NCBI RefSeq assembly: GCF_000766795.1
Contig: NZ_JPDS01000003.1
Span: forward strand, 558,001 to 622,000
From: Polaribacter sp. Hel1_85
GTDB lineage: Bacteria > Bacteroidota > Bacteroidia > Flavobacteriales > Flavobacteriaceae
DNA: 64,000 nt
Direction: 5' to 3'
The notes under the pieces are model-generated. The model was not told the DNA's origin, did no database searches, and worked only from the letters and a program-made list of their open reading frames with translations. Made by a program: the position numbers and the translations under genes. Numbering within the stretch: position 1 is the first letter of the stretch; the number at the start of each line of letters is the position of its first letter. Of this stretch, positions 19,549 through 22,911 are shown in pieces.

Positions 19549-22500
19549 TTAGCCTACTATGTTTACAATTTTACCAGGAACAATAATTACTTTTTTAGGT
19601 GTTCTACCATCTAATTGAGCTATTGTTTTTTCATTTTCCATAACTGCTTTTTCTATTTCATCTTTAGACATATCTAAAGGAAGTTCTAGCGTAAAGCGCA
19701 TTTTTCCGTTAAAAGAAATTGGGTAATTCTTAGCGCTTTCAACTAAATGTTTTGGCTCAAATACTGGAAAATCTGCTGTAGAAATTGATTCTTTTTTTCC
19801 TAATAAACTCCATAATTCTTCTGCTATATGAGGTGCATAAGGAGAAACTAAAACTGTTAAAGGTTCTAAAATTGCACGCTTATTACATTTTAAAGCAGTT
19901 AACTCGTTTACAGCAATCATAAATGTAGAAACAGATGTATTAAAAGAGAAATTCTCTATATCATCTTCTACTTTTTTAATTGTTTTGTGTAATGTTTTTA
20001 ACTCGTCTTTTGTTGGTTCTGCATCAGAAACTTCTAATATTTCACCATTAAAATATAATTTCCATAATTTTTTTAAGAAAGATGAAACTCCAGAAATACC
20101 TGACGTTTTCCATGGTTTAGCTTGTTCTAAAGGTCCTAAAAACATTTCGAATAAACGTAAGCTATCTGCTCCATATTCTTCACAAATAGCATCTGGGTTT
20201 ACAACATTGTATTTAGACTTAGACATTTTTTCAACCTCACGTCCAACTTTATAAACACCTTCTTCTAAAACGAATTCAGCATTTTTGTAATCTGCATTTA
20301 AAGGATGATTTTTAAATCCATCAACATCTAATTCATCAGAAGCGTTTACTAAAGAAACATCAGAATGAATCGCAGTTTTAGTAATCATCACTAAATCTGC
20401 AAAATTAGGATCTAAAAACTTATTATCTAGTAAGTAATTTTTTACAACAGTTTCAAACTCATCATCAGAATTAAATAAATTTTTAGAAACAATTACTGTA
20501 GGTATCTTTTCTAAAACATCATCTAAAGATTTTTCATCTGCACAACCACAACCATTTTTAACAAAAGCAGTTGATCTGTATACAAAAGCACTCGTCCCCA
20601 AAATCATTCCTTGATTAATCAGTTTTTTTGCAAACTCATCTACAGGAACAATTCCTTTATCGAACAAGAATTTTTGCCAAAAACGCGCGTATAATAAATG
20701 TCCTGTTGCATGTTCAGATCCACCAATATATAAATCTACTTCTTTCCAATATTCTAAAGATTCTTTACTTGCAAATTCAGTAGAATTTGTAGCATCCATA
20801 TATCTATTAAAATACCAAGAACTTCCTGCCCAACCAGGCATTGTGTTTAATTCTAAAGGATAAACCGTTTTATTTTTTAACTTTTCGTTAGAAACAACTT
20901 TCTTTCCACGAGAATCCCAAGCCCATTCTGTTGCATTTCCTAAAGGTGGTTTTCCATCTTCAGTTGGCAAGTATTTTTCAACTTCTGGCAACACAATTGG
21001 CAAATGTTCTGCATCAATCATTTGTGGCATTCCATCTTTATAATACACTGGGAAAGGTTCTCCCCAATAACGTTGTCTACTAAAAACTGCATCACGTAAT
21101 CTATAGTTTATTTTACCGTAACCAAAACCACGTTTTTCCATTTCATAAATGGCTAATTTTAATGCTTTCTTATATTTTAATCCTGATAAAAAATCTGAAT
21201 TAGCAATTACAGTTCCGTCTTTATCTGCATGAGCAGCTTCAGAAATATCTACACCTTCAAAAATATTAGGAATTGGAATGTTAAAGTGTTTTGCAAAGTC
21301 ATAATCACGTTGATCTCCACAAGGAACTGCCATAACTGCTCCTGTACCATAACTTGCTAACACGTAATCTCCAATCCAAATTTGAACTTTTTCACCAGAA
21401 AAAGGATGAATTGCATAAGCACCTGTAAAAGCACCAGAAATGGTTTTTACATCTGCCATTCTATCTCTTTCAGAACGTTTTGCTGTAGCTGTAACGTAAG
21501 CCTCAACTTCTGCCTTTTGAGCATCTGTTGTTATCTTAGAAACCAAGTCGTGCTCTGGAGCTAAAGTCATAAAACTTACTCCGTAAATTGTATCTGGTCT
21601 TGTTGTAAAAACATCAATTTTATATGACTTCTCGACTTCGCTCGAAGTGACATTTTTATTACTTTCAGTTTTATCAACTTTTGGAAATTGAATCGCAAAA
21701 TTAATTTCTGAAACTACTTTTACTACATTTTGTAAAACTTCTTCATTCGTAAAACGAATTACATTAAAACCTTCTTTATGAAAAAATGCGGTTCTTTCTT
21801 CTTCATCTTCTTTACCAACAAATTCAACAATTAAGTTCTTAGCAACACACACATAATCTACCATAAAAGTACCAATAGTGTACTTTTTTCTAAATTTTGA
21901 TGCTCCTTTTTTATTCTTAATTTCATTCCAAAGCGTAGTTTCTGCTTTCGATAAATTTTGACGTAATTCTTTTAATGCTTCTAATTCTTTATAAGATAAC
22001 TTTACTTCAGAATTTGATTTTGTAGTATTTTCTTCTACTTTAAAAGTTACCATTGCTCCTTGAGAACGCCCAATCCAATTGGTTTGAGAATCTTTTAAAG
22101 GTTGTGGCCAATCAATTTTTTCTAATCCATCTAACAAACGTTGTGCGTATGCAGAAATTCTCATAGACCATTGTGTCATCTTTTTACGAACAACAGGATG
22201 ACTTCCACGTTCTGAAACTCCGTTTACAATTTCATCATTTGCCAAAACGGTACCTAAAGCAGGACACCAGTTTACTTCTGTATCTGATAAAAATGTTAAA
22301 CGATATTGTAATAATAATTCTTCTTGTTCTGTTTTAGAAAATGCTTTCCATTCATCTGAAGAAAATGACTTTATTTCTTCATCTGAAACTGCATTTACTG
22401 TTGCATTTCCTTCTTTTTTAAAGATTTTTTCTAAAGTAGAAATATCTTCTGCTTTGTCGGAATCTTTATTATACCATGAATTGAAAAGTTGGATAAAAAT

Positions 22501-22911
22501 CCACTGTGTCCATTTATAATATTCAGGATTTGAAGTTCTTACTTCTCTGCTCCAATCAAAAGAAAAACCAATATTATCTAATTGTCTTCTATAAGTTGCA
22601 ACGTTTTCTTCTGTGGTTTTTGCTGGATGCTGACCAGTTTGTATTGCATACTGTTCTGCAGGTAAACCAAAAGAATCATATCCCTGAGGATGTAATACGT
22701 TAAAACCTTTATGACGTTTATAACGTGCATAAATATCACTTGCAATATATCCTAAAGGATGCCCAACATGTAAACCTGCTCCTGAAGGATAAGGAAACAT
22801 ATCTAACACATAATATTTAGGTTTATCCGATTCATTACTGGCTTTAAAAGTTTGGTTTTCTGCCCAAAATTTTTGCCATTTCTTTTCTATCTCTAAGTGA
22901 TTGTATTGCAT
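19549..22911 (-). CDS. leuS: Leucyl-tRNA synthetase with inserted DUF559 domain
   Basis: Class I aminoacyl-tRNA synthetase charging tRNA-Leu. The ATP motifs are PYPSGAGLHVGHPLGY (about 41-56) and KMSKSKYNVVNPD. The editing (CP1) domain has NWIGRSQGAMVTFKV (about 278-292) and the threonine-rich motif VFTTRPDT (about 434-441). Between those two, residues 294-430 form a 137-residue block not found in ordinary LeuS. Most of it is a DUF559/Vsr-like nuclease domain: LSKAETTLWNEIKNKKGASK, FRKKYTIGTFMVDY, LIVEFVGKED, GFNVIRFTNEEVL. The total of 1120 residues compares with 860 in E. coli, part of the difference being other family-typical insertions. The gene is intact and should be functional. A -7-like TAAATTTG lies at 22941-22934. 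Confidence 0.97.
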   Translation of the reverse strand: MQYNHLEIEKKWQKFWAENQTFKASNESDKPKYYVLDMFPYPSGAGLHVGHPLGYIASDIYARYKRHKGFNVLHPQGYDSFGLPAEQYAIQTGQHPAKTTEENVATYRRQLDNIGFSFDWSREVRTSNPEYYKWTQWIFIQLFNSWYNKDSDKAEDISTLEKIFKKEGNATVNAVSDEEIKSFSSDEWKAFSKTEQEELLLQYRLTFLSDTEVNWCPALGTVLANDEIVNGVSERGSHPVVRKKMTQWSMRISAYAQRLLDGLEKIDWPQPLKDSQTNWIGRSQGAMVTFKVEENTTKSNSEVKLSYKELEALKELRQNLSKAETTLWNEIKNKKGASKFRKKYTIGTFMVDYVCVAKNLIVEFVGKEDEEERTAFFHKEGFNVIRFTNEEVLQNVVKVVSEINFAIQFPKVDKTESNKNVTSSEVEKSYKIDVFTTRPDTIYGVSFMTLAPEHDLVSKITTDAQKAEVEAYVTATAKRSERDRMADVKTISGAFTGAYAIHPFSGEKVQIWIGDYVLASYGTGAVMAVPCGDQRDYDFAKHFNIPIPNIFEGVDISEAAHADKDGTVIANSDFLSGLKYKKALKLAIYEMEKRGFGYGKINYRLRDAVFSRQRYWGEPFPVYYKDGMPQMIDAEHLPIVLPEVEKYLPTEDGKPPLGNATEWAWDSRGKKVVSNEKLKNKTVYPLELNTMPGWAGSSWYFNRYMDATNSTEFASKESLEYWKEVDLYIGGSEHATGHLLYARFWQKFLFDKGIVPVDEFAKKLINQGMILGTSAFVYRSTAFVKNGCGCADEKSLDDVLEKIPTVIVSKNLFNSDDEFETVVKNYLLDNKFLDPNFADLVMITKTAIHSDVSLVNASDELDVDGFKNHPLNADYKNAEFVLEEGVYKVGREVEKMSKSKYNVVNPDAICEEYGADSLRLFEMFLGPLEQAKPWKTSGISGVSSFLKKLWKLYFNGEILEVSDAEPTKDELKTLHKTIKKVEDDIENFSFNTSVSTFMIAVNELTALKCNKRAILEPLTVLVSPYAPHIAEELWSLLGKKESISTADFPVFEPKHLVESAKNYPISFNGKMRFTLELPLDMSKDEIEKAVMENEKTIAQLDGRTPKKVIIVPGKIVNIVG
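21620..22032 (-). mobile_element. In-frame DUF559 insertion within leuS
   Basis: Codes residues 294-430 of LeuS. Family hallmarks of DUF559 are seen: LRxxLSxAExxLW, KFRxxYxIGxFxVDY (D352), IVE (E363) and GFxVIRFTNEEVL. The usual ExDG...H reads EFVG with no histidine, and the following loop is shortened, so nuclease activity is probably lost. The 5-prime flank on the plus strand holds a REP-like palindrome (21631-21652). The insertion sits in a loop between two editing-domain strands. Calling it mobile is inference from its sporadic-looking placement and the adjoining repeat. Confidence 0.7.
21631..21652. repeat. REP-like palindrome inside leuS
   Basis: Reads CTCGACTTCGCTCGAAGTGA followed by CA, with a perfect 6-bp stem ACTTCG/CGAAGT (21635-21640, 21643-21648). 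It shares TCTCGACT-N2-GCTCGA-N3-GACA with two copies at 46376-46436. In leuS it is translated as VTSSEVEKS at the end of the DUF559 insertion. Confidence 0.75.

Follow-up and report, generated by a model that had tools for sequence, protein, structure and literature searches.

Inteins that carry a homing endonuclease are tied to one site of one gene, adjoin the motifs of conserved enzymes and are patchily distributed. Association with self-splicing has been described as freeing homing endonucleases to invade highly conserved sequences (PMC3943268, partial text). Here we describe a leucyl-tRNA synthetase (LeuRS) gene, leuS, of Polaribacter sp. Hel1_85 that contains, in frame, a block with a nuclease-like DUF559 domain. 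The gene lies in a window of 64,000 nucleotides (positions 558,001 to 622,000 of contig NZ_JPDS01000003.1), the term 'window' standing for the whole stretch analysed. The block and its relatives share with inteins the site-tied, patchy and nuclease-bearing habit, but we found in them neither a splicing domain nor the junction residues, and the element appears to stay in the protein.

Other described systems resemble the block in part. The EDxHD homing endonuclease I-Bth0305I (PDB 3r3p) is similar to it in both sequence profile and fold. I-Bth0305I was deposited as a mobile intron protein and has an extended DNA-binding region (PMC3943268, partial text), whereas the block appears to be a compact domain inside a host frame, where we found no intron or intein, and the window copy has lost DG..H of the active-site motif. 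The DUF559/PRK09767 endonuclease-like proteins (PDB 3hrl) and Caulobacter VsrA belong to the same Pfam family and fold as the block; these proteins are free-standing, whereas inserts inside host frames mostly fall into a lineage of their own, in which an N-terminal T(A/G) motif is frequent. A DUF559 protein has been tied to the SOS response, and a Vsr-like repair role was proposed (PMC12907096, partial text). The nearest precedent for in-frame palindromes is provided by the Rickettsia palindromic elements (RPEs), which are found in frame in unrelated genes, measure about 150 bp and encode a conserved peptide (PMC10969869, partial text); in the present case, a nuclease lies between two palindromes.

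We consider it fairly probable that the block is a resident copy of a Bacteroidota family of nuclease elements that live as in-frame domains of host proteins and likely spread by homing, the window copy being old and probably domesticated.

The LeuS insert and its nuclease-like domain

The main features of the locus, in window coordinates, are the following.

19549..22911, minus strand: leuS, leucyl-tRNA synthetase with insert, 1120 amino acids (list of open reading frames; TIGR00396, 873 bits for a cut-off of 548)
21619..22035, minus strand: foreign block, amino acids 293-431 (comparison with empty-site LeuS)
21691..21978, minus strand: DUF559 (Vsr-fold) domain, amino acids 312-407 (Pfam; AlphaFold2 model; PDB fold matches)
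21799..21825, minus strand: altered active-site motif EFVGKEDEE, amino acids 363-371 (columns of 69 altered and 25 intact LeuS inserts)
21589..21606, minus strand: TTRPDT editing motif, amino acids 436-441, immediately following the insert (the same in all 43 aligned LeuS)

The leuS frame is open through all 1120 codons, and its product is a bacterial leucyl-tRNA synthetase, the only LeuS above the family cut-off in its genome; the cell's LeuRS must therefore function with the block or remove it. The block replaces a six-residue turn (DGHDAK type) in a hairpin of CP1, right before TTRPDT. In empty-site LeuS this turn lies between MVSFxV and IxVFTTRPDT, and in the window the corresponding strands, MVTFKV and IDVFTTRPDT, enclose a block that runs from E293 to the SYK preceding I432. 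The TTRPDT and GTGAVMxVP motifs are unchanged across the 43 aligned LeuS, filled and empty. The nearest named LeuS matches are from Polaribacter (93%).

DUF559 (PF04480) is the only Pfam domain found in the block (E 1.6e-20, 73.4 bits for a cut-off of 20.6). An AlphaFold2 model of the block, built from 56 LeuS inserts, has a mean predicted local distance difference test score of 77.9, with a core at about 90 and low-confidence ends. The modelled core consists of two helices, three strands, a helix, a strand and further helices, which is a Vsr-type fold according to comparison with the PDB: the best matches include the DUF559 protein 3hrl (Z 14.9; Foldseek E 3.1e-6), the catalytic domain of I-Bth0305I (Z 11.2 over 85 residues, root-mean-square deviation 2.1; Foldseek E 7.7e-4) and Vsr itself (1cw0, Z 9.6), the latter tied with mitoribosomal proteins at Z 9.0 and 8.8. 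The model of full-length LeuS was poor (predicted template modelling score 0.36) and says nothing on the placement of the domain. A profile of the inserts, searched against solved sequences at an E-value of 0.01, retrieved exactly two, 3hrl (5e-29) and I-Bth0305I (9.3e-6), the second establishing sequence homology to an EDxHD homing endonuclease.

The active site of the window copy is altered: it reads EFVGKEDE where intact copies have E(V/I)DGxxH (the presence of this motif in 25 of 25 intact LeuS inserts is by construction, the group having been sorted by it). All 69 members of the altered LeuS group lack the D and H of the motif. The group has also lost the QH that intact copies possess, along with some six residues downstream of the motif. 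Conversely, E324, D352 and E363 (segment positions 47, 75 and 86), three acidic residues in the core of the nuclease, are present in every one of the 69 and belong to 24 invariant core columns, while the linkers vary freely. One named relative, P. irgensii, has D in place of E363.

A preliminary description of this DNA, made from the sequence alone, had placed the insert at 21620-22032, right to within three bases, in a gene open across it, and had recognized a DUF559 domain of Vsr fold deprived of the DG and H of ExDG...H. Our results agree with each of these points, and the profile and fold matches are in favour of the domain call.

Host genes, palindromic ends and relatedness of the inserts

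Is the insert a peculiarity of this genome? We searched 146 genomes of the window's GTDB genus and found a DUF559 match in 93 of them, with 126 strong matches in all (E 1.3e-16 or better; seven further matches, weaker than 1e-8, were excluded). These comprise 81 copies in LeuS (69 altered and 12 intact), 34 in RecG, four in MetH, three in HsdR and four that stand alone (three of the four judged by frame length alone), so that 122 of the 126 lie in frame inside a host protein. The genome of the window itself has a second DUF559 copy, in RecG, with an intact motif. From the 144 genus genomes with a LeuS match we fetched 130 LeuS loci, 81 of which are filled. Among named LeuS loci, of which the 80 best matches were fetched and 74 could be parsed (six did not), a block was present at the CP1 site in 57 of the 74 and in many genera of Flavobacteriaceae. 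More widely, at least 143 of 299 genomes of the family and at least 170 of 296 of the phylum have a DUF559 match, short free-standing frames being common in the phylum sample. An insertion private to this genome is ruled out by the 69 altered copies in the genus and the many filled genera.

The range of in-frame hosts is wide. Pfam and NCBIfam identified, besides LeuS at its CP1 site and RecG, a UvrD-type helicase (L352, L354) nearest to RecB/AddA, though below curated cut-offs; the fused isobutyryl-CoA mutase IcmF (L353); a second site in LeuS, within the catalytic domain (L358); a type ISP restriction enzyme (L272); HsdR (L007); and MetH (L350). Terminal fusions were found with HisD (L045), a PurQ/PurL-type amidotransferase (L286), HemD (L036) and HemF (L366). 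Motifs recognized by eye gave the first host names for L003-L061, and HsdM (L291) and the hosts of L273, L274, L046, L048, L054, L355, L359, L360, L364 and L367 were named by eye only. In the haem synthesis enzymes HemD and HemF, DUF559 is an in-frame N-terminal fusion (identified by Pfam in L036 and L366, and by eye in L046, L048, L054 and L367). One methionine synthase (MetH) frame, L368 (1086-4562, minus strand), contains two DUF559 domains at different places.

The RecG insert matched two phage records at 32 and 35% identity, and 35 plasmid records were matched, all below 60% identity. In PHROGs, the RecG insert hit four families, the best of them an HNH endonuclease (1.7e-6), and in PADLOC it hit a 'homing endonuclease' (1.3e-5) and a type II restriction model (1.4e-4). 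Neither collection gave a match for the window block.

The ends of intact copies are mostly G+C-rich palindromes with a further C- or G-run outside, as in RecG of the window's genome, where they read CCTTCCC-AAA-GGGAAGG and CCCTCCC-TTT-GGGAGGG. In frame, such palindromes encode linkers resembling SPSQPSQREG or SLPLGGQGWA. We compared the hairpin score of each end with 20 single-base shuffles and counted ends scoring above 99% of shuffles. Hairpins were thus counted at 20 left and 22 right ends of 25 intact LeuS copies and at 15 and 18 of 30 RecG copies, versus 1 and 0 of 69 altered LeuS copies. A stricter count with a G+C limit, which missed A+T-richer arms, gave 16 left and 4 right ends for the 25 intact copies and 2 and 0 for the 69 altered ones. 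Palindromic ends of the RPE kind are a feature of the majority of intact LeuS copies and of roughly half of those in RecG, and are absent from the window insert. Free-standing DUF559 genes have hairpins on 12 of 48 sides; when the sides were shuffled, 9 of 960 had them, as did 2 of 96 pieces taken farther away in the same loci. An earlier count had found hairpins in 10 of 24 loci and in 1 of 320 control pieces taken around leuS, which were not matched in composition. Some of the free-standing-gene hairpins are not of the CCC/GGG type (L057, L061).

The window insert does hold a small palindrome of another kind:

21628..21649, minus strand: small palindromic repeat CACTTCGAGCGAAGTCGAGAAG (CACTTCGAGCGNAGTCGAGAAG), in frame within VTSSEVEKS, the linker after the domain (genome count against reversed control)

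This repeat has 15 sites in the genome within two mismatches, 13 of them on one strand, for none in the reversed control. It represents a second family, unrelated to the palindromes at element ends and nearer to RPEs than the nuclease elements are. Short palindrome-type inserts with no nuclease (VTSSAVEKP, VIASETKQS) also occur at the same LeuS turn in L166, L246, L263 and L264; L174, a close relative of L166, is empty there.

In a tree of 133 insert domains (L005 was dropped), host labels need seven changes, the least possible. Altered LeuS, RecG, MetH, HsdR and HemD copies form one clade each, and intact LeuS copies need two changes. The 69 altered LeuS copies form a clade with a long branch and support 100. 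A second tree took in a wider set of 64 domains, thinned to at most eight rows per host and from which HisD, HsdM and two methylase hosts were lost through the motif filter; a branch of support 100/94 divides this tree. On one side are LeuS (both sites), RecG, MetH, AddA-like, IcmF and PurL-type hosts with one HsdR and one free-standing copy; on the other are 17 of the 18 free-standing copies together with HemD, HemF, ISP and the other HsdR copies. The T(A/G) motif before the domain occurs in 25 of 35 rows of the LeuS, RecG, MetH, AddA-like, IcmF and PurL-type hosts versus 1 of 29 others. LeuS, the second LeuS site, AddA-like and HsdR need two changes each in this tree, which has 15 in all for a minimum of 12. 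Within a LeuS group of weak support (91/27), the AddA-like copy L352 pairs as sister with a LeuS copy from Flavobacterium (99/95). This pair likely represents one jump between genes, of inferred direction.

Host trees present a patchy distribution. In a LeuS tree of 143 rows built with the insert omitted, the filled or empty state needs 11 changes, 13 of the rows being from other genera, found by DUF559 match and hence filled by selection. Using the host data of 52 hand-chosen LeuS rows (25 from the 69 altered copies, 10 from the 25 intact ones and 17 from the 49 that are empty or short), a single altered clade is rejected with p 2.7e-4 and a single filled clade with p 5e-42. The RecG tree (49 rows) needs 15 changes, a count that 235 of 500 label shuffles equalled or undercut, with 30 of the 34 filled copies and 19 empty ones whose position near the top of the ranking against RecG of the window's genome favours mixing; host data reject filled RecG as one clade (p 2e-40). 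Seventeen of the 19 empty RecG have the same five-codon linker. The exceptions are L348, which keeps the right-hand palindrome alone, and L347, with ten codons, both in frame. These remnants may be scars of lost elements. The uniform turn of empty LeuS alleles within mixed clades argues for allele exchange rather than plain deletion.

Proposed homing, inheritance and probable domestication

How could such elements spread? An intact element consists of one stop-free frame for a Vsr-fold DUF559 nuclease, usually bounded by G+C-rich palindromes read as linker peptides, and occupies a loop of a conserved gene. Homing is its likely mode of spread: the nuclease would cut the empty allele and repair would copy the element in, while rare events would move it into new genes; the element would persist because clean loss is hard. 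The LeuS clade to which the window copy belongs has lost its palindromes, as well as D and H in the motif, and retains the fold and three acidic residues. The link to homing-type mobile nucleases drawn in the preliminary description is borne out by the profile and fold match to I-Bth0305I, by the intact, mostly palindrome-bounded copies in LeuS and RecG, and by the in-frame copies in MetH and other hosts.

Several observations weigh against spread by homing. Clade rejection and change counts do not separate gain from loss, so one gain with many losses is compatible with them, and ordinary recombination could exchange alleles with no help from a nuclease. The host-wise clades of inserts mean that jumps between genes are rare, and we saw no recent transposition or target-site duplication. 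A clear sign of co-conversion was not found: trees of 100-codon windows display no clear gradient (13 and 19 changes adjacent to the site, 11 to 18 farther away), and nearest neighbours in 60-codon windows rise slightly towards the site on the left flank only. Synonymous divergence is about the same in insert and host, with RecG medians of 0.61 and 0.60 (r 0.69; proportions of synonymous differences, pS, near 0.6 being close to saturation) and r 0.70 for altered LeuS. Equal and correlated divergence is what vertical descent plus loss or allele exchange predicts, and most copies indeed look old and vertically inherited, with alleles lost or exchanged. A few pairs deviate in the other direction: insert pS is below 0.6 of host pS in 5 of 435 RecG pairs (the reverse in none), in 6 of 2346 altered LeuS pairs (the reverse in 2) and in 1 of 66 intact LeuS pairs (the reverse in none), the clearest being RecG L319 against L317, L318 and L320 (0.19 versus 0.51-0.53). 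The LeuS pair L116 and L136 (0.04 versus 0.32) was not used as a transfer, as its host value is raised by a hypervariable stretch; this stretch, in the right part of LeuS, has about 37-61% DNA identity between these close relatives, compared with about 95% in many surrounding windows. Overall, the comparative signs for cutting of, and copying into, an empty allele are mixed.

The elements might instead have spread passively, as palindromic insertions of miniature inverted-repeat transposable element or repetitive extragenic palindrome type moved by another enzyme, with ordinary recombination exchanging alleles and the nuclease either a passenger or a player in defence or repair. The missing co-conversion gradient fits this view, as do the G+C-rich hairpins beside free-standing DUF559 genes and the nuclease-free palindromes at the LeuS site (L166, L246, L264). 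The state of the nuclease itself does not, since the inserts evolve under constraint: the ratio of nonsynonymous to synonymous rates (dN/dS) is 0.20 in intact LeuS inserts (15 pairs), the corresponding ratio of proportions, pN/pS, is 0.28 in RecG inserts versus 0.14 in their hosts (43 pairs), and 24 of 30 RecG copies keep ExDG..H. Values of 0.2 to 0.3 are unexpected for a mere passenger, and of the only two solved relatives that the sequence profile retrieved, one is a homing endonuclease. We thus regard passive spread as rather unlikely. In the six other RecG copies (L303, L314, L315, L325, L328, L329) ExDG..H is changed and several have eroded end palindromes, a parallel to altered LeuS; two Flavobacterium LeuS inserts, L231 and L271, present other motif changes (VDGGILYT, VDVDTHD) that look like independent decay.

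An old domain accretion, in which an ancestral flavobacterial LeuS gained DUF559 once for a role in tRNA binding or editing and passed it on vertically with many losses and no present mobility, seems unlikely as well. It would account for the nearly equal divergence of insert and host, for the constrained and strongly supported altered clade, and for its three acidic residues and intact predicted fold. Nevertheless, it would call for many precise losses, a single clade of filled LeuS alleles being rejected, and the uniform turn of empty LeuS could hardly be restored by plain deletion. Nor does accretion in LeuS explain why the same lineage resides in RecG, MetH, AddA-like helicases, IcmF and a second LeuS site, hosts with no common function, or why most intact copies are bounded by palindromes.

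We give similarly little credence to the idea of a neutral fossil, that is, a dead insert not yet deleted, even though DG..H is lost throughout the altered clade and the linkers are free to vary. The preliminary description had considered a fossil, along with a recent arrival. The first, understood as neutral decay, is not favoured by a median dN/dS of about 0.23 in altered LeuS inserts versus 0.11 in the host gene (820 non-independent pairs sharing 69 sequences), nor by the invariant columns; the second is not supported, the altered copies forming a single clade of 69. The altered insert thus appears constrained, although selection against misfolding of LeuRS may be part of this. The window copy is probably an old, domesticated one, and perhaps a nucleic-acid-binding module. 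The RAP domain of FASTKD4, which has a Vsr- and I-Bth0305I-like cavity, binds RNA and was judged to lack nuclease activity (PMC11879112, partial text), makes a tRNA-related role thinkable; FASTKD4 being a eukaryotic mitochondrial protein, RNA binding by the LeuS domain is a guess.

The preliminary description's view that no splicing takes place is also supported. All 130 genus LeuS loci, which were fetched by LeuS match irrespective of open frame, have their two flanks within a single open frame, and the genus LeuS and RecG matches listed contain no internal stop. Insert lengths, all divisible by three, were given no weight, as the segments had been excised from a single frame; separately, one RecG with insert (G129:C67:8361-11056) is split into frames of 404 and 478 amino acids, through a real break or a sequencing error. 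No intein domain of Hint type is present among the Pfam matches of the window LeuS, the block begins with E and lacks a terminal His-Asn, and an Rfam search of the block gave no match up to E 1, which together led us to reject an intein, an intron or a known RNA element. As far as sequence can tell, an intact element would be translated as part of its host protein. Of the 25 intact LeuS copies, 17 have a methionine ahead of the domain, which makes separate translation of the nuclease conceivable. Removal of the block by hidden protein or RNA splicing, or by ribosomal bypassing over the palindromes, is very improbable. The insert does adjoin the active-site motifs of enzymes that are essential, and mRNA of intact copies could form the hairpins, but no splicing device was found and the altered clade retains its insert with no hairpins, which makes skipping unlikely at least in this clade.

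Nuclease elements as apparently lasting parts of enzymes

In our reading, homing-type nuclease elements that do not splice are combined with protein-coding palindromes. In the open literature we found no description of such in-frame, non-splicing nuclease elements, most subscription papers being outside this coverage. A broader interpretation, to which we would give slightly less than even chances, is that a Bacteroidota lineage of Vsr-fold nucleases gave up splicing in favour of stop-free palindromic ends, becoming a lasting enzyme domain in LeuS (at two sites), RecG, MetH, AddA-like helicases, IcmF and HsdR; it would home between alleles, at times jump between genes, and sometimes be domesticated, as in Polaribacter LeuRS.

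A relative of homing endonucleases sits in loops of conserved enzymes where we found no splicing device, and the element therefore seems to be a lasting part of these enzymes. If this is true, selfish DNA would have here a route to becoming protein domains, and a single genus would display its empty, intact, altered and scarred states side by side; how a parasite becomes a domesticated domain could then be tested directly. LeuS, RecG and MetH genes of Bacteroidota may then carry unrecognized nuclease domains.

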